Shown: one piece after another, positions 15,383 to 57,976 of the stretch
How positions within the stretch are numbered: position 1 is the first letter of the stretch
Layout: each line of letters opens with the position of its first letter
Origin: Flavobacterium sp. N1994
GTDB lineage: Bacteria; Bacteroidota; Bacteroidia; Flavobacteriales; Flavobacteriaceae
Direction: 5' to 3'
NCBI RefSeq assembly: GCF_025947145.1
Contig: NZ_CP109999.1
Location: 2,790,001-2,854,000, forward strand
DNA: 64,000 nt
Made by a program: the position numbers and the translations under genes
Notes under the pieces: generated by a model
What the model saw: only the letters and a program-made list of their open reading frames with translations
Databases searched by the model: none
What the model was told of the DNA's origin: nothing

Positions 15383-15634
15383 TTATTTTTTGTTTTCTTT
15401 GAAACGTTTGTCTGGAGTACCATCTTTTTTAAGTGGTCCTTTAGCTTCTTTATTTTCTTTAAAACGTTTGTCTGGAGTGCCATCTTTTTTCAAAGGAGCT
15501 TTAGCTTCTTCTTTTTTAGCTGCAGGAGCTTTGGTTTCTTTAGCAGCTTTGTCTGCTTTTTTAGGAGCTTGTTGTGCTGAGGCAGTAAGCGTAAATCCTA
15601 TCATTGCCATTACGGCTAACATTAGTTTTTTCAT
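15383..15634 (-). CDS. Small exported Lys/Ala-rich repeat protein
   Basis: The 83-residue protein has a clear signal peptide (MKKLMLAVMAMIGFTLTASA, cleaved before QQAPKK). The mature part is Ala/Lys/Glu-rich and holds two near-identical 20-residue tandem units, each containing PLKKDGTPDKRFKENK. The DNA of the two units is also nearly identical (60-bp period), which points to a recent duplication. I recognise the KDGTPDKRFKENK unit as recurrent in small Bacteroidota proteins, but no function is known to me. The very basic charge suggests binding to an acidic polymer or nucleic acid. That is inference only. Confidence 0.78.
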   Translation of the reverse strand: MKKLMLAVMAMIGFTLTASAQQAPKKADKAAKETKAPAAKKEEAKAPLKKDGTPDKRFKENKEAKGPLKKDGTPDKRFKENKK

Positions 15635-18512: not shown

Positions 18513-18542
18513 AAACCCTTTCAGCAATGAAAGGGTTTTTTG
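18513..18542 (+). terminator. Terminator of the acyl-CoA dehydrogenase gene
   Basis: AAACCCTTTC pairs perfectly with GAAAGGGTTT around AGCAAT, followed by more T, 54 bp after the stop. Confidence 0.9.
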
Positions 18543-18569
18543 ATTTGGAAAAATTAGTACATTTACTTC

Positions 18570-19247
18570 ATGTATGAAGAACTAAAATATTGGTATCTCC
18601 GTGATCACAAATTGTTTTGGACCTTGAGTATGTCTCAAATCAAGCAGTTGTGTATCATTACCGGATTTAAAAAAGCTAAAAAGGGCGATATCATTTATTT
18701 TTCTTCTTCCGATTTACCTCGTGTTTTTTTACTCAAAAAAGGAAATATCAAAATTGTTTCTGTGGATGAAGAAGGAAATGAAACCGTGAAGGATATCATT
18801 CAAAAAGGAGATTTGTTTGGCGAATTAGAATTAGATAGCGATCAAAACTCAAATGAATACGCTAAGGCACTTACCGATGATATCATCATTTGCAGTTTCC
18901 TACTTTCTGATTTTGAAAATTTACTATTGCAAAATCCAAGTTTAGCGTTGTCTTATACCAAATTCGTTGGACTCAAAATGAAACGCATTAAAAACAATTA
19001 TGCCAATTTGATGTCTAAAGATGCTAAAACTCGTTTGCTAACGTTTCTGAAAGATTGGGCTGACCGTGACGGAAAGAAAGAAGGCAATAGAGTCCTTCTC
19101 GAAAATTACCTTACCCAAACCGATATTGCTCAAATCATTTGTACCTCCCGTCAAACGGCCACTTTATTACTAAATGAATTAGAAGAAAACGGAATCATGC
19201 ACTACGGACGCAAAGAAATCATCATAGAAGATATTTCGAAGTTATAG
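18570..19247 (+). CDS. Crp/Fnr family transcriptional regulator
   Basis: The 225-residue protein has an N-terminal cyclic-nucleotide-binding-like beta-roll (~30-130: KKAKKGDIIYFSSSD, FLLKKGNIKIVSVDEEG, KGDLFGELELD), a dimerisation helix (~130-160) and a winged helix with YLTQTDIAQIICTSRQTATLLLNELEENG (~175-205), where the recognition helix is SRQTATLLLNEL. The cAMP-contact Arg-Ser of true CRP is not visible, and no Cys cluster for an Fe-S centre is seen, so the signal is unknown. It directly precedes the DM13/YHS/DoxX genes, whose two promoters both carry a TGT-N10-ACA dyad, which makes them its likely targets. Confidence 0.92.
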   Translation: MYEELKYWYLRDHKLFWTLSMSQIKQLCIITGFKKAKKGDIIYFSSSDLPRVFLLKKGNIKIVSVDEEGNETVKDIIQKGDLFGELELDSDQNSNEYAKALTDDIIICSFLLSDFENLLLQNPSLALSYTKFVGLKMKRIKNNYANLMSKDAKTRLLTFLKDWADRDGKKEGNRVLLENYLTQTDIAQIICTSRQTATLLLNELEENGIMHYGRKEIIIEDISKL

Positions 19248-19262
19248 TTTTTTTATTCTAAT

Positions 19263-19278
19263 TGTAAACTACCCGACA
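19263..19278 (+). promoter_or_regulatory. TGT-N10-ACA dyad, operator site 1
   Basis: The 16-bp TGTAAACTACCCGACA has the half-site arrangement and length of Crp/Fnr-family operators. It matches the site at 21120 in 13 of 16 positions. Its first base is exactly 37 bp upstream of the -7 box in both cases, which centres it near -40, the class II activator position. GACA sits where the -33 TTTG would be, so the promoter looks activator-dependent. Confidence 0.6.
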
Positions 19279-19299
19279 TTTCTCTTTTAGTAACTGTAA

Positions 19300-19307
19300 T
19301 AGCTTTG
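19300..19307 (+). promoter_or_regulatory. -7 element of the DM13 operon
   Basis: TAGCTTTG fits TAnnTTTG exactly. It overlaps the upstream TTG that opens the DM13 reading frame, so that TTG would be upstream of the transcript start. This supports the ATG at 19329 as the true start. Confidence 0.6.
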
Positions 19308-19328
19308 TTTAATAAAAAAACAAATGCT

Positions 19329-19742
19329 ATGAAAAAGATTTTTTTACTACCCATACTTTTCATTTTTGCCTCTTGTCAGGAAGAAGGACCTTTAACAAAA
19401 GACAGCCAAGCTGAAGTTATAACGCCAACAGCGGTATTGAAATACTCAGGCACTTTTGTACCAACTGACGGCATTGTTGTTTCAGGAAAAGCTAAGATTT
19501 ATCTCGAAAACAATCAGTACAAAGTACAACTCGACAATTTTTCTATTTCGGACGGTCCTGATTTGAAAGTCTATTTGTCTAAAGCGGCTACTCCAAATCA
19601 ATTTGTAAACCTTGGAAATTTAACTTCCCAAACGGTATATCTTATTCCAGCCAATGTAAATGTGGCCGACTATTCTCATGTATTAATCCATTGTCAGCAG
19701 TACAATCATTTGTTTGCTATTGCCGCATTAACATCAAATTAA
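19329..19742 (+). CDS. DM13-domain lipoprotein
   Basis: The ~137-residue protein starts MKKIFLLPILFIFASC, a lipoprotein signal with the lipobox Cys at residue 16. The mature part is one DM13 domain: AVLKYSGTFVPTDGIVVSGKAK, then GPDLKVYLSK and a C-terminal SHVLIHCQQYNHLFAIAAL, each a recognisable family segment. DM13 domains have been proposed to bind a redox group through a conserved Cys, and Cys is present here in IHCQQ. It probably faces the periplasm. It is first in an operon with a beta-barrel protein and a YHS protein, 6 bp and 26 bp apart, behind a Crp-type regulator. Confidence 0.85.
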   Translation: MKKIFLLPILFIFASCQEEGPLTKDSQAEVITPTAVLKYSGTFVPTDGIVVSGKAKIYLENNQYKVQLDNFSISDGPDLKVYLSKAATPNQFVNLGNLTSQTVYLIPANVNVADYSHVLIHCQQYNHLFAIAALTSN

Positions 19743-19748
19743 AAAATA

Positions 19749-20648
19749 ATGAAAAAGACACTTTTAGTTTTTGGGTTACTACTTGCCGTAAATTATATGT
19801 TTTCTCAGGGTTGTAGCGATGCCGGAATTTGTTCCATCAATCACGGATTTCAATCGGAGGATAAATCATTTAAAAGCACACTCGAATTGGCTGCTATTTA
19901 TAGTTTAGGCGAAGCGGATGTGGGGTATTTTTCTCCTTACATTTCGTACACAAAAAGATTCAGTGAGCGATTTTCTTTCACAAGTAAAGTTACTTACTCT
20001 ACGGCTCATGGAAGTTTTGGGACGCGTAGTCAATTTGGAGATGCTTTTTTAATTGGCAATTACACTTTCAAAGAAAAGAATAAGAAACAGTGGAGTACTT
20101 TATTGGGCTTTAAATTTCCGTTCACTGCTTCTAATCTTAAGATTAACGGCTATTCGTTACCCTTAGATTATCAATCTAGTTTAGGAACTATCGATTTGTT
20201 TTTGGGAACTAATTTGCATTACAAGTATTGGGATTTTAATGGCGCTTTGCAGCTTCCTATTGTGAACTTAAATAATAATTCTTATTTCAAAGAATACGGT
20301 GGAACCAATGATTTTCCATCGACCAATTTATTTGAGCGTAAGCCCGATGCCCTTTTAAGAGCTACTTATTCTCTAAAAACACCCAATAAGAAATTTACGT
20401 TTAAGCCTAATGTATTATTCATTTACCATTTGGGAAAAGACAGTTTTGAAAACATTTTTGGACAAAGAGAAAACATTAAGGGTTCGGATGGTTTAACCAT
20501 TAACGGAAATATAATAACTTCGTATAGTCTTACAAAACAAAGCAGTTTAGAATTGTCCTTGGCAACGCCTTTTGTGGTTCGAGATAGTCGTCCAGACGGA
20601 TTAACTAGAAGCTTTGTTCTAGGATTGCAATATCAATATTCATTTTAA
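19749..20648 (+). CDS. Outer-membrane beta-barrel protein of unknown function
   Basis: The 299-residue protein has a signal peptide ending near MFSQ. The mature protein opens with a Cys pair (GCSDAGICSINHGF), then shows alternating aromatic beta-strands to a C-terminal QYQYSF with terminal Phe, as in outer-membrane barrels. About 12 strands look possible. I do not recognise a named family with certainty; it resembles small transporter-like barrels. It lies 6 bp after the DM13 gene and 26 bp before the first YHS gene. The N-terminal Cys pair could hold a metal or form a disulfide. Confidence 0.75.
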   Translation: MKKTLLVFGLLLAVNYMFSQGCSDAGICSINHGFQSEDKSFKSTLELAAIYSLGEADVGYFSPYISYTKRFSERFSFTSKVTYSTAHGSFGTRSQFGDAFLIGNYTFKEKNKKQWSTLLGFKFPFTASNLKINGYSLPLDYQSSLGTIDLFLGTNLHYKYWDFNGALQLPIVNLNNNSYFKEYGGTNDFPSTNLFERKPDALLRATYSLKTPNKKFTFKPNVLFIYHLGKDSFENIFGQRENIKGSDGLTINGNIITSYSLTKQSSLELSLATPFVVRDSRPDGLTRSFVLGLQYQYSF

Positions 20649-20674
20649 TAAATTAAAAACATAAAATATAAAAC

Positions 20675-21103
20675 ATGAAAAAATTAATTTTAGTCCTGTT
20701 CGTTACAATGATTTCAGTACAAATCCAAGCTCAAAATCAGTATTTAAAAAATGGAGTAGCCATTCAAGGATTTGATCCAGTAGCTTATTTTGAAAGCAAC
20801 AAAGCCATCCAAGGCAGAAGCGAAATCAATACCGAATATAAGAAAGCCATTTATTTCTTTTCCTCTGAAAAAAACAGAGCCCTATTTCTAAAAAAACCAG
20901 AAAAATATGTACCGCAATATGGAGGGTATTGTGCCTACGGTATTTCCGAAGGTCATGCCTCCCCAACCGACCCACAAGCCTTTACCATTGTGGATGATAA
21001 ATTATACCTGAATTACAATTTGAAAGTAAAAGAAATGTGGTCAAAAGACCGTGCAGAACGCATTGTCAAAGCCAACGAGAACTGGAAAAAATTAAAAAAA
21101 TAA
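20675..21103 (+). CDS. YHS-domain exported protein 1
   Basis: The 142-residue protein has a signal peptide (MKKLILVLFVTMISVQIQAQ) and one YHS domain: AIQGFDPVAYFESNKAIQG, IYFFSSEKNRALFLKKPEKY and the core PQYGGYCAYGISEGH. YHS domains are small metal-associated folds found in copper and haem proteins. A Cys sits in the core where some homologues have selenocysteine. A paralogue follows at 21192. The two share the core and the order of motifs but differ in about half of the remaining positions, so the duplication is old. Confidence 0.88.
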   Translation: MKKLILVLFVTMISVQIQAQNQYLKNGVAIQGFDPVAYFESNKAIQGRSEINTEYKKAIYFFSSEKNRALFLKKPEKYVPQYGGYCAYGISEGHASPTDPQAFTIVDDKLYLNYNLKVKEMWSKDRAERIVKANENWKKLKK

Positions 21104-21119
21104 TATTTTTTGCCTCAAA

Positions 21120-21135
21120 TGTAAAGTAGCGGACA
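21120..21135 (+). promoter_or_regulatory. TGT-N10-ACA dyad, operator site 2
   Basis: TGTAAAGTAGCGGACA agrees with the site at 19263 in 13 of 16 bases and keeps the central TA. It is exactly 37 bp upstream of the -7 box TATCTTTG, the same spacing as site 1. Two sites with the same sequence, orientation and spacing near a Crp-family gene are unlikely to be chance. Confidence 0.6.
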
Positions 21136-21156
21136 AAGTCAAATTTTTACCCACTA

Positions 21157-21164
21157 TATCTTTG
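21157..21164 (+). promoter_or_regulatory. -7 element of the YHS2-DoxX transcript
   Basis: TATCTTTG matches TAnnTTTG. It lies 27 bp before the ATG at 21192 and covers the TTG at 21162 that would otherwise extend the frame, which argues against that upstream start. Confidence 0.6.
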
Positions 21165-21191
21165 TCTCATCAAATTATAAAACTTAAAAAA

Positions 21192-21650
21192 ATGAGAAAA
21201 GTATTTTTAGTATTGTTCGTTAGCTTTACAACAATAATGGTTGGGCAAACGGCTCAAAAAAGAATAGCAGAATTCAATCTTGATAAAAAAGTAGCCCTTC
21301 AAGGATATGATCCTGTGGCGTATTTTACCCAGAAAAAAGCGGTGAAAGGAAAGTCTACATTCACTGCAACAAATGAAGGAGTGATTTATAATTTTTCTTC
21401 TCAAGCTAATAAAGAAGCTTTTGTTAAATCCCCAGCAAGTTATGAGCCTCAATACGGAGGTTGGTGTGCTTATGCTATGGGTTCTACTGGAGAGAAAGTG
21501 GAAGTAGATCCTGAAACGTTTAAAATCACCAACGGGAAGCTATTTTTGTTTTACAATGCCTACTTCAATAATACTCTGAAATCATGGAATAAAGATGAGT
21601 CCAATCTTAATAAAAAAGCGGACGCTAACTGGAAAAAAATCATCAACTAA
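21192..21650 (+). CDS. YHS-domain exported protein 2
   Basis: The ~152-residue protein starts at the ATG at 21192 (MRKVFLVLFVSFTTIMVGQ is the signal peptide). The YHS domain reads ALQGYDPVAYFTQKKAVKG, YNFSSQANKEAFVKSPASY and PQYGGWCAYAMGSTGE. It differs from the 20675 paralogue mainly after the core, where it has EVDPETFKI. It has its own promoter with the second TGT-N10-ACA dyad and is followed 12 bp later by the DoxX-like gene. The likely location is the periplasm. A metal or haem ligand is inferred from the family only. Confidence 0.88.
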   Translation: MRKVFLVLFVSFTTIMVGQTAQKRIAEFNLDKKVALQGYDPVAYFTQKKAVKGKSTFTATNEGVIYNFSSQANKEAFVKSPASYEPQYGGWCAYAMGSTGEKVEVDPETFKITNGKLFLFYNAYFNNTLKSWNKDESNLNKKADANWKKIIN

Positions 21651-21662
21651 AAAACTAAAAAA

Positions 21663-22052
21663 ATGAAAAAATCAATATTCATTTGGATTGTAAAACTTAT
21701 TGCAGTGGTAATCCTAGTTCAAACTTTATTTTTTAAATTTACGGGAGCCGAAGAGAGTGTTTATATTTTTACCAAATTAGGAATTGAACCTTTCGGAAGA
21801 ATTGGTTCTGGAGTGGCAGAATTAATTGCTTCTATTTTAATTTTAATCCCAAGAACTACATTGCTTGGCGCATTAATTGGAGCAGGAACAATGCTTGGAG
21901 CTATTTTTTCACACTTGTTTGTGTTGGGTATAGAAGTGAAAAATGACGGTGGTGAATTGTTTACTTTGGCTATAATTACCTTGCTTTGTTGTATTATCTT
22001 ACTTTTTCAAAACAAGAATAAAATACCTGATTTACTCCGATTCAAAATCTAA
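21663..22052 (+). CDS. DoxX-like membrane protein
   Basis: The 129-residue protein has four TM helices (about residues 6-26, 47-64, 68-88 and 99-118) and the DoxX-like pattern IVKLIAVVILVQTLFFKFTGAEESV with GSGVAELIASILILIP. DoxX-like proteins are often part of envelope redox or oxidative-stress sets. It is the last gene of the transcript that starts with YHS2, 12 bp away. Confidence 0.85.
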   Translation: MKKSIFIWIVKLIAVVILVQTLFFKFTGAEESVYIFTKLGIEPFGRIGSGVAELIASILILIPRTTLLGALIGAGTMLGAIFSHLFVLGIEVKNDGGELFTLAIITLLCCIILLFQNKNKIPDLLRFKI

Positions 22053-56720: not shown

Positions 56721-56777
56721 GGTGTAAAAATACAGTTTTAATTATTTTGAAGCCCATCGTTCGGGTAAATTTTAAAT

Positions 56778-56839
56778 CTTGTTCCCGCTGTCCGTTCTAT
56801 CTCGTCAAAAAAGACAAGATGCCACTCCCATCGGGGCTA
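56778..56839 (-). repeat. TAGCCCCG...AGCGGGAA element, copy 1
   Basis: On the minus strand the element begins TAGCCCCGATGGGAGTGG, holds the hairpin ATCTTGTC-TTTTTT-GACGAGAT and ends GAACGGACAGCGGGAACAAG. The plus-strand copy at 57853-57924 has the same borders with a different, longer hairpin. From memory, closely similar sequences recur in Flavobacterium intergenic DNA. Confidence 0.65.
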
Positions 56840-56889
56840 TTTACAATCTCTAGGCTCCTTTTAAAAGCAGTGATCATTTCTTCCCGAAA

Positions 56890-57843: not shown

Positions 57844-57852
57844 TTTACTGTC

Positions 57853-57924
57853 TAGCCCCGGTAGTAATGAAAATAAAATGTCCCGAGATATCGGGACATT
57901 TTATTGTAATGGATAGCGGGAATA
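57853..57924 (+). repeat. TAGCCCCG...AGCGGGAA element, copy 2
   Basis: The element begins TAGCCCCGGTAGTAATG, holds the perfect 15-bp stem AATAAAATGTCCCGA/TCGGGACATTTTATT with a GATA loop, and ends GTAATGGATAGCGGGAATAG. Its borders match copy 1 on the other strand at 56778-56839. The long hairpin can also end transcription of the rhomboid gene and of rlmB. Confidence 0.75.
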
Positions 57925-57976
57925 GGGATTACTGATACTTCCCGAGCCTTTCGCTTCTTATTATTTTGTTGATGGA

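Follow-up and report, generated by a model that had tools for sequence, protein, structure and literature searches.

A Crp/Fnr-family regulator of Flavobacterium and associated conserved sites before predicted exported redox and methionine-repair genes

Results

In the 64,000-nucleotide stretch of the genome of Flavobacterium sp. N1994 analysed here (assembly GCF_025947145.1, contig NZ_CP109999.1, positions 2,790,001 to 2,854,000 of the forward strand; the whole stretch is called the window below), a gene for a Crp/Fnr-family regulator is followed by a cassette of genes for DM13, beta-barrel, YHS and DoxX-like proteins, and two of these genes are preceded by a 16-bp site that starts exactly 37 bp before a TAnnTTTG promoter box. 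This regulatory architecture is real and strongly conserved, and a third copy of it stands before a methionine sulfoxide reductase (Msr) gene elsewhere in the genome. Judging from the sites, their spacing and the genes behind them, the regulator probably activates genes for the repair of oxidant damage in the cell envelope from sites centred at -41.5.

Site 1 (TGTAAACTACCCGACA, 19263..19278) and site 2 (TGTAAAGTAGCGGACA, 21120..21135), both on the forward strand, have 13 of their 16 bases in common and differ at positions 7, 10 and 12. The sequence-only reading, a note made from the letters of the window before this analysis, had located both 16-mers 37 bp before TAnnTTTG boxes, and that distance is exact: site 1 is followed by TAGCTTTG (19300..19307) and site 2 by TATCTTTG (21157..21164), the predicted sigma-A type -7 boxes of promoters 1 and 2. 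The class II position of CRP and FNR is -41.5. Because TAnnTTTG is placed at -12 to -5 in F. psychrophilum (PMC9723704), both putative regulator-binding sites span -49 to -34, and the class II position near -40 that had been claimed becomes -41.5 once the box is set at -12. With starts taken in this way from the F. psychrophilum consensus, both promoters would be of class II type. At -37 to -34, the expected place of the -33 TTTG element, stands GACA. The predicted leaders are 17 nucleotides long for the DM13 gene and 23 for the gene of the second YHS protein (YHS2).

By itself the dyad TGT-N10-ACA shows no enrichment in the window (18 matches, 16.65 expected). Together with the box at 37 bp it occurs twice, against a mean of 0.02 in 150 first-order Markov resamplings, none of which reached two or more. 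In the 3.35-Mb genome, TGT-N10-ACA-N21-TAnnTTTG has four matches and its reversed control none; two of the four are those of the window, one lies before the MsrB-MsrA gene, and one, likely a chance match, falls within a reading frame. The tighter dyad TGTAANNNANNNGACA without the box shows no enrichment over the whole genome (five matches against seven for the reversed control). Of these five, three have a box at the usual 37 bp; the remaining two fall within reading frames, one of them boxless and one with a box at 38.

The spacing was then counted in the best 80 of 211 loci with relatives of the regulator in named genomes, mostly of Flavobacterium or Flavobacteriaceae. Although all 17 spacings from 29 to 45 were allowed, with TAnnTTTG or TAnnTTTA as the box and at most 130 bp to the gene start, 89 of the 90 site-box pairs before cassette genes have spacing 37 and the remaining one has 36. 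By first gene, 35 precede YHS2, 32 a peroxiredoxin-like AhpC/TSA gene, and 22, plus the pair at 36, DM13. A pair stands directly before an annotated cassette gene in 77 of the 80 loci; in two others (L138 and L152) it is present near a contig end with no start called behind it, and L172 has none. A further locus set, scanned at spacings 33 to 41 with TAnnTTTG only, held one pair at 36 (L043, before DM13) and four at other distances (33, 33, 40 and 41), one of these four 129 bp before a regulator gene and the others without an annotated gene behind. The sequence-only reading had named absence of the dyads upstream of the orthologues as what would tell against it; they are conserved there, and the 37-bp distance hardly varies, either within the genus or among the loci of a sister clade.

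This constancy also bears on the sign of the regulation. A repressor that binds over the -33 region, blocks the polymerase and is released by a signal would be compatible with sites that overlap the core promoter, as these do. However, a single fixed spacing in nearly every pair, with GACA replacing the -33 TTTG, suits an activator that touches the polymerase, because a repressor would presumably tolerate shifts, and we regard repression as very unlikely.

The consensus over 61 distinct 45-mers is TGTAAACTAgCcGACA, and the site is an imperfect dyad with consensus half-sites TGTAAACT and TGTCGGCT. As TGT, ACA and the box were preconditions of the scan, their constancy carries no evidence; nearly fixed besides them (in 57 to 61 of the 61) are AAA at -46 to -44, TA at -42/-41, C at -39 and G at -37. 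Most of the spacer varies freely, save for a run of T at -26 to -23.

The rule extends to a sister clade of Crp/Fnr proteins. In 198 further genomes of the family, nearly all one per genus, a homologue of the regulator (E at most 1e-30) was found in 59, and 29 of these loci, from other genera of the family, were examined (L216-L244). A site, commonly TGTTAGCTAGCTAACA, lies 37 bp before TAnnTTTG in all 29, so that the 37-bp rule is wider than the cassette. It starts right after the stop codon of the regulator gene in 25 loci, within 9 bp of it in three and 301 bp on in one. The next gene is lipoprotein-like by eye in 27 of the 29, and the one product tested matched RskA_C. The sister clade thus shares with the cassette the 37-bp rule, the location of the site behind the regulator gene and a cysteine at position 108, but it differs in an operator close to TGTTAGCTAGCTAACA, in its mostly lipoprotein-like target and in a cysteine at position 20 rather than 28.

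Within the genus, 121 genomes were sampled, including that of N1994 and drawn evenly from a larger group; 43 have an orthologue of the regulator (E at most 1.2e-59). The pattern TGTAANNNANNNGACA-N21-TAnnTTTG gave 61 sites in 36 of the 121 genomes and its reversed control one. It is present in 32 of the 43 regulator-positive genomes and in 4 of the 78 regulator-negative ones (Fisher p 1e-15, uncorrected for relatedness). In 299 genomes of the family, a stricter pattern matched in only four: N1994 (three sites) and G194, G404 and G238 (one each). In G238, which has a homologue of the regulator itself, the distance from the end of the matched part of that homologue to the site is 16 bp.

Thirty of the 61 sites belong to regulator cassettes, and the other 31 lie at least 3.2 kb from any regulator gene. 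With gene classes assigned by eye, and by profile for representatives only, 26 of these 31 precede a predicted exported redox gene: 19 encode MsrB or MsrB-MsrA (two of them in the regulator-negative genomes G017 and G079), four a DsbH-like thioredoxin, two DM13 and one YHS, while five have another gene or none. The third site of N1994 itself (G000:C1:1142312, about 1.67 Mb away) stands before a gene for a predicted lipoprotein MsrB-MsrA with SelR and PMSR domains, which scores 353 bits with the bifunctional MsrB/A family NF004042 (cut-off 330). This one genome has the same site before MsrB-MsrA and before YHS2-DoxX, the export of the products being judged by eye. Because this site precedes a predicted exported methionine-repair enzyme both in N1994 and in its relatives, the regulator likely switches on repair outside the cytoplasm. 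The sequence-only reading had guessed at metal, peroxide or nitric oxide (NO) as the signal; as most sites outside the cassette precede predicted exported MsrB, the likely job has moved to the repair of oxidised envelope proteins.

The same genes bear on metal homeostasis, in which the regulator would sense copper or iron, the YHS, DoxX and barrel proteins would handle metal in the envelope, and Msr would be a side guard against metal-driven oxidation. YHS domains are classed with metal handling, and the DUF2063 and UPF0276 families are linked to copper in other settings. A study on Haemophilus influenzae lists members of these two families in a doxX operon (PMC7907618). By eye, however, neither the cassette variants nor the genes that come first after the 31 outside sites included a metal transporter, metallochaperone or P-type ATPase; most of these sites precede MsrB, thioredoxin, DM13 or YHS genes, and a metal role appears unlikely.

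Several loci show related arrangements. In L075 (G047:C48), a further copy of the regulator stands directly before genes for an exported MsrB and a DUF1223-like protein (by eye), and another site follows 3.2 kb on, before a glgC-like gene. In G032 (L249), which has no regulator orthologue, msrB lies directly before DinB-TANGO2, with TGTAAATTCGTTAACA 37 bp before TAnnTTTG and about 150 bp before the MsrB frame. Decayed or partial regulator copies were seen at G079:C13:504028-504275 (with stop codons) and G105:C21:5515-5724 (a 70-residue fragment).

The regulator (18570..19247, forward strand; 225 amino acids) consists of an effector domain and a Crp-type helix-turn-helix, and its scores of 47.5 bits with PF00027 (cut-off 27.5) and 44.3 bits with PF13545 (cut-off 27) place it in the Crp/Fnr superfamily. 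Its scores are far below the NCBIfam cut-offs for the CRP equivalog (48 bits against 266) and the FNR subfamily (47.4 against 228), and also below that for NtcA. It has no cysteine before residue 28, and on these grounds membership of CRP or FNR was rejected. At the start of the recognition helix it has R194 and Q195, where the paralogues have T (six of seven) and E (seven of seven). At position 94, which we take to be the likely counterpart of R82, the cAMP-phosphate arginine of CRP (the alignment was made without CRP), 38 of 44 focal proteins have S, V, N or T, and all 33 sister proteins have arginine. All 79 of the focal, intermediate and sister proteins have Cys108. Of the 46 focal and intermediate proteins, 45 keep Cys28; in its place the sister clade has a cysteine at position 20 (33 of 33). 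This pattern makes a two-cysteine switch (Cys28 and Cys108) possible.

Membership of the Crp/Fnr superfamily would also fit a response of the FNR or DNR type, in which the regulator would sense oxygen or NO. The best solved relative by single sequence is the carbon monoxide sensor CooA, with FNR and DNR lower down, and Cys108 aligns with a cysteine kept by six of the seven paralogues. On the other hand, the regulator lacks the N-terminal CxxC seen in six of the seven paralogues, its alignment to FNR (8qto) begins only at residue 11, and no nitrate, nitrite or NO reductase was recognised by eye as the first gene behind the sites. An anaerobic or NO response is accordingly improbable to a high degree.

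All members of the cassette lie on the forward strand. Its left border region contains a predicted intrinsic terminator (18513..18538; an 11-pair stem with a T tail) after the upstream acyl-CoA dehydrogenase gene; a consensus scan of the stretch gave three such terminators, with 2.5 expected. The predicted promoter box of the regulator gene is TACATTTA (18558..18565); if its TA is set at -12, transcription would begin at the A of the regulator's ATG, which predicts a leaderless transcript. No TGT-N10-ACA site occurs at this promoter. Autoregulation was considered as a rule and rejected, since just 6 of the 80 loci have such a site in the 160 bp before the regulator gene.

The genes behind the regulator encode a predicted DM13 lipoprotein with a cysteine in HCQQYNHLF that is conserved over 24 reading frames (19329..19742; lipoprotein signal by eye), a predicted exported outer-membrane beta-barrel with an N-terminal GCSDAGIC motif (19749..20648), two predicted exported proteins of the YHS domain (seleno)protein family in the cysteine form (YHS1, 20675..21103; YHS2, 21192..21650) and a DoxX-like membrane protein (21663..22052). 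Profile matches bear out the families named in the sequence-only reading, namely Crp/Fnr, DM13, two YHS and, weakly, DoxX. DM13 scores 45.5 bits with PF10517 (gathering score 25), and YHS1 and YHS2 reach 157 and 133.7 bits with NF041384 (cut-off 70), while by the Pfam YHS cut-off of 30.3 one copy passes (30.9) and the other does not (25.8). The DoxX-like protein passes PF07681 marginally (24.1 bits against 23.6) and fails DoxX_2, PF13564 (24.8 against 26.3). Pfam and NCBIfam searches gave no match for the barrel protein. Its model is strand-rich and of low confidence (predicted local distance difference test, pLDDT, 67; predicted template modelling score, pTM, 0.64), and its top Foldseek matches are outer-membrane barrels, FapF and a COG4313 channel, although the TM-scores are low (0.38 to 0.48 over the first 20 matches). 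Searches of solved structures with YHS2, DM13 and the barrel found no match. DM13, both YHS proteins, the barrel and the peroxiredoxin-like protein of other loci each have a conserved cysteine and, by eye, an export signal at their start.

The common gene order is acyl-CoA dehydrogenase, regulator, variable cargo, YHS2, DoxX, DinB and TANGO2. The cargo may be absent or may consist, among other variants, of DM13-barrel, DM13-barrel-YHS1, a peroxiredoxin-like gene (AhpC-TSA, WCPYC) or an AhpD-like/DUF1348/AraC set. The five-family set described in the sequence-only reading is therefore one cargo variant and not a fixed unit; the commonest core is YHS2 with DoxX, and DM13-barrel, YHS1 and the peroxiredoxin-like gene come and go. 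The 80 loci contain open reading frames for 71 YHS2, 34 peroxiredoxin-like, 25 barrel (one gene being split in two), 24 DM13 and 9 YHS1 proteins. DinB-TANGO2 follows the cassette in most of these loci, yet we treat it as flank rather than as part of the cassette, because DinB directly adjoins acyl-CoA dehydrogenase, with no cassette genes between, in three regulator-negative genomes (G010, G029 and G007). These are three of the five with DinB among 24 chosen out of the 78 regulator-negative genomes, and their arrangement indicates that the cassette behaves as an accessory block.

One locus, L141 (CALPIE020000011.1), is titled as a Bifidobacterium breve metagenome-assembled genome but bears the cassette with a regulator of 89% identity, and this bin looks mislabelled. 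Elsewhere in the window, 15383-15634 on the reverse strand encodes a small lysine- and alanine-rich protein whose start resembles a signal sequence and in which a PLKKDGTPDKRFKENK unit is repeated, and two Flavo-1 RNAs (RF01705) lie on opposite strands about 1 kb apart (57850-57927, forward; 56777-56842, reverse).

Discussion

The arrangement described above likely represents class II control by a Crp/Fnr protein applied to the repair of oxidant damage, in particular methionine sulfoxide, in the envelope. We infer that the regulator binds the conserved sites and activates transcription from them. It would likely be made constitutively, because its own promoter lacks the site, and would then be activated by a signal. 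The activated dimer may bind each site as a class II activator that replaces the -33 TTTG element, since the downstream half-site occupies the location of that element. Promoter 1 would drive DM13-barrel-YHS1, promoter 2 YHS2-DoxX, and the distant third promoter the lipoprotein MsrB-MsrA. To judge from the families, Msr would reduce oxidised methionines of exported proteins, and DoxX, YHS and DM13, joined in relatives by the peroxiredoxin-like protein and the DsbH-like thioredoxin, may give electrons or remove the oxidant. The weakest step is the trigger. It would probably be a strong oxidant, for example hypochlorous acid or a peroxide, which Cys108 and Cys28 may read together.

The closest parallels come from other bacteria with another class of regulator. 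In H. influenzae, RpoE2 controls both a periplasmic MsrAB and an operon with DoxX upon exposure to hypochlorous acid, and the SigE regulon of Neisseria meningitidis includes trx-msrAB as well as a DoxX cluster, RpoE2 being likened to SigE by the authors (PMC7907618); resistance of H. influenzae to hypochlorous acid requires MsrAB (PMC11024254). Those regulons, of which that of H. influenzae responds to hypochlorous acid, place MsrAB and a DoxX-containing operon under one envelope-stress regulator, and predicted exported Msr and DoxX would be joined in this way in the set described here. However, the regulator is an extracytoplasmic function (ECF) sigma factor there and a Crp/Fnr protein here, and the partners in the doxX cluster of H. 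influenzae are DUF2063 and UPF0276 where the cassette has YHS, DM13 and the barrel. By gene content, the flavobacterial set thus resembles a counterpart of the RpoE2/SigE regulons under a different class of regulator.

Further comparisons can be made with other systems. CRP and FNR at class II promoters of Escherichia coli likewise use a dimeric site like TGT-N10-ACA, which has its centre at -41.5 and covers the upstream element of the core promoter; in contrast to them, the box here is TAnnTTTG, the half-sites are TGTAAA and TGTCGG rather than TGTGA or TTGAT, and the regulator scores far below the NCBIfam cut-offs for CRP and FNR. The MsrP-type periplasmic hypochlorite systems of Proteobacteria likewise repair methionine outside the cytoplasm, but MsrP is a molybdoenzyme, whereas MsrB or MsrB-MsrA with predicted lipoprotein signals is found here. 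Both YHS proteins fit the NF041384 YHS (seleno)protein family, for which we know of no proven function; they are cysteine forms and are predicted to be co-regulated with Msr. The open-licence literature yielded nothing that joins a YHS domain with DoxX and methionine sulfoxide reductase, or a YHS domain with Flavobacterium, and two of DM13, YHS and DoxX came together there only in work on Staphylococcus saeP. Among the open-licence matches listed, which are no proof of absence, neither a Crp/Fnr-Msr system of Flavobacterium nor the architecture reported here was described.

Several observations weigh against envelope repair under this regulator. The site-plus-box counts are not independent, because the genomes are related, and the gene classes behind the outside sites depend largely on inspection by eye. 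Five of the 31 outside sites precede a GMC-type oxidoreductase, a glgC-like gene, a barrel-like exported protein, an endonuclease III-like gene and no gene, respectively. The roles of YHS, DM13 and DoxX in the cassette are predicted ones; some cassette neighbours (DUF1348, AraC and a methyltransferase) are not redox genes, and in the 80-locus count no separate site-box pair accompanies the AhpD-like set that some loci carry. As to the cysteines, Cys108 is kept in six of the seven paralogues too, and the model of the regulator (pLDDT 70, pTM 0.45) is too poor to judge them. The exact pattern is missing from 11 of the 43 regulator-positive genomes, some of which have TAnnTTTA boxes or TGTCGG half-sites that fall outside it.

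Conversely, the pattern is present in four of the 78 regulator-negative genomes (G079, G115, G017 and G029). In G079 the regulator gene contains stop codons and the msrB site is kept, and in G115 no gene is called behind the site. No orthologue is detectable in G017, with a site before MsrB, or in G029, with one before DM13; in these two, the site may serve another factor, or the regulator may have been lost. Taken further, these two genomes would favour a different protein as the general binder, with the adjacency to the regulator coincidental. The distribution of the pattern (32 of 43 against 4 of 78 genomes) and the sister clade, in which all 29 loci examined likewise have the site after a Crp/Fnr gene of their own, speak strongly against such a coincidence, which we consider extremely improbable.

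The repair of oxidised envelope proteins under the Crp/Fnr regulator can be put in a more specific form, which we offer tentatively. The flavobacterial protein might detect reactive chlorine or peroxide as a dedicated thiol sensor, through Cys28 and Cys108, and then switch on a scattered envelope-repair regulon (exported MsrB or MsrBA, DsbH-like thioredoxin, peroxiredoxin, YHS, DoxX and DM13-barrel) from sites at -41.5, in the role that an ECF sigma factor has in Haemophilus and Neisseria.

The results give a Crp/Fnr regulator of Flavobacterium a genome-wide regulon that can be tested, together with a simple reading rule, a site that starts 37 bp before TAnnTTTG, which held in 89 of 90 pairs in one Crp/Fnr clade and in 29 of 29 in another. 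They also tie poorly understood exported families (the YHS seleno-type, DM13 and the FapF/COG4313-like barrel) to methionine sulfoxide repair, which makes their functions testable. If the proposed role is true, the protection of exported proteins from oxidants, which is run by ECF sigma factors in Haemophilus and Neisseria, would be run by a Crp/Fnr protein in these bacteria.

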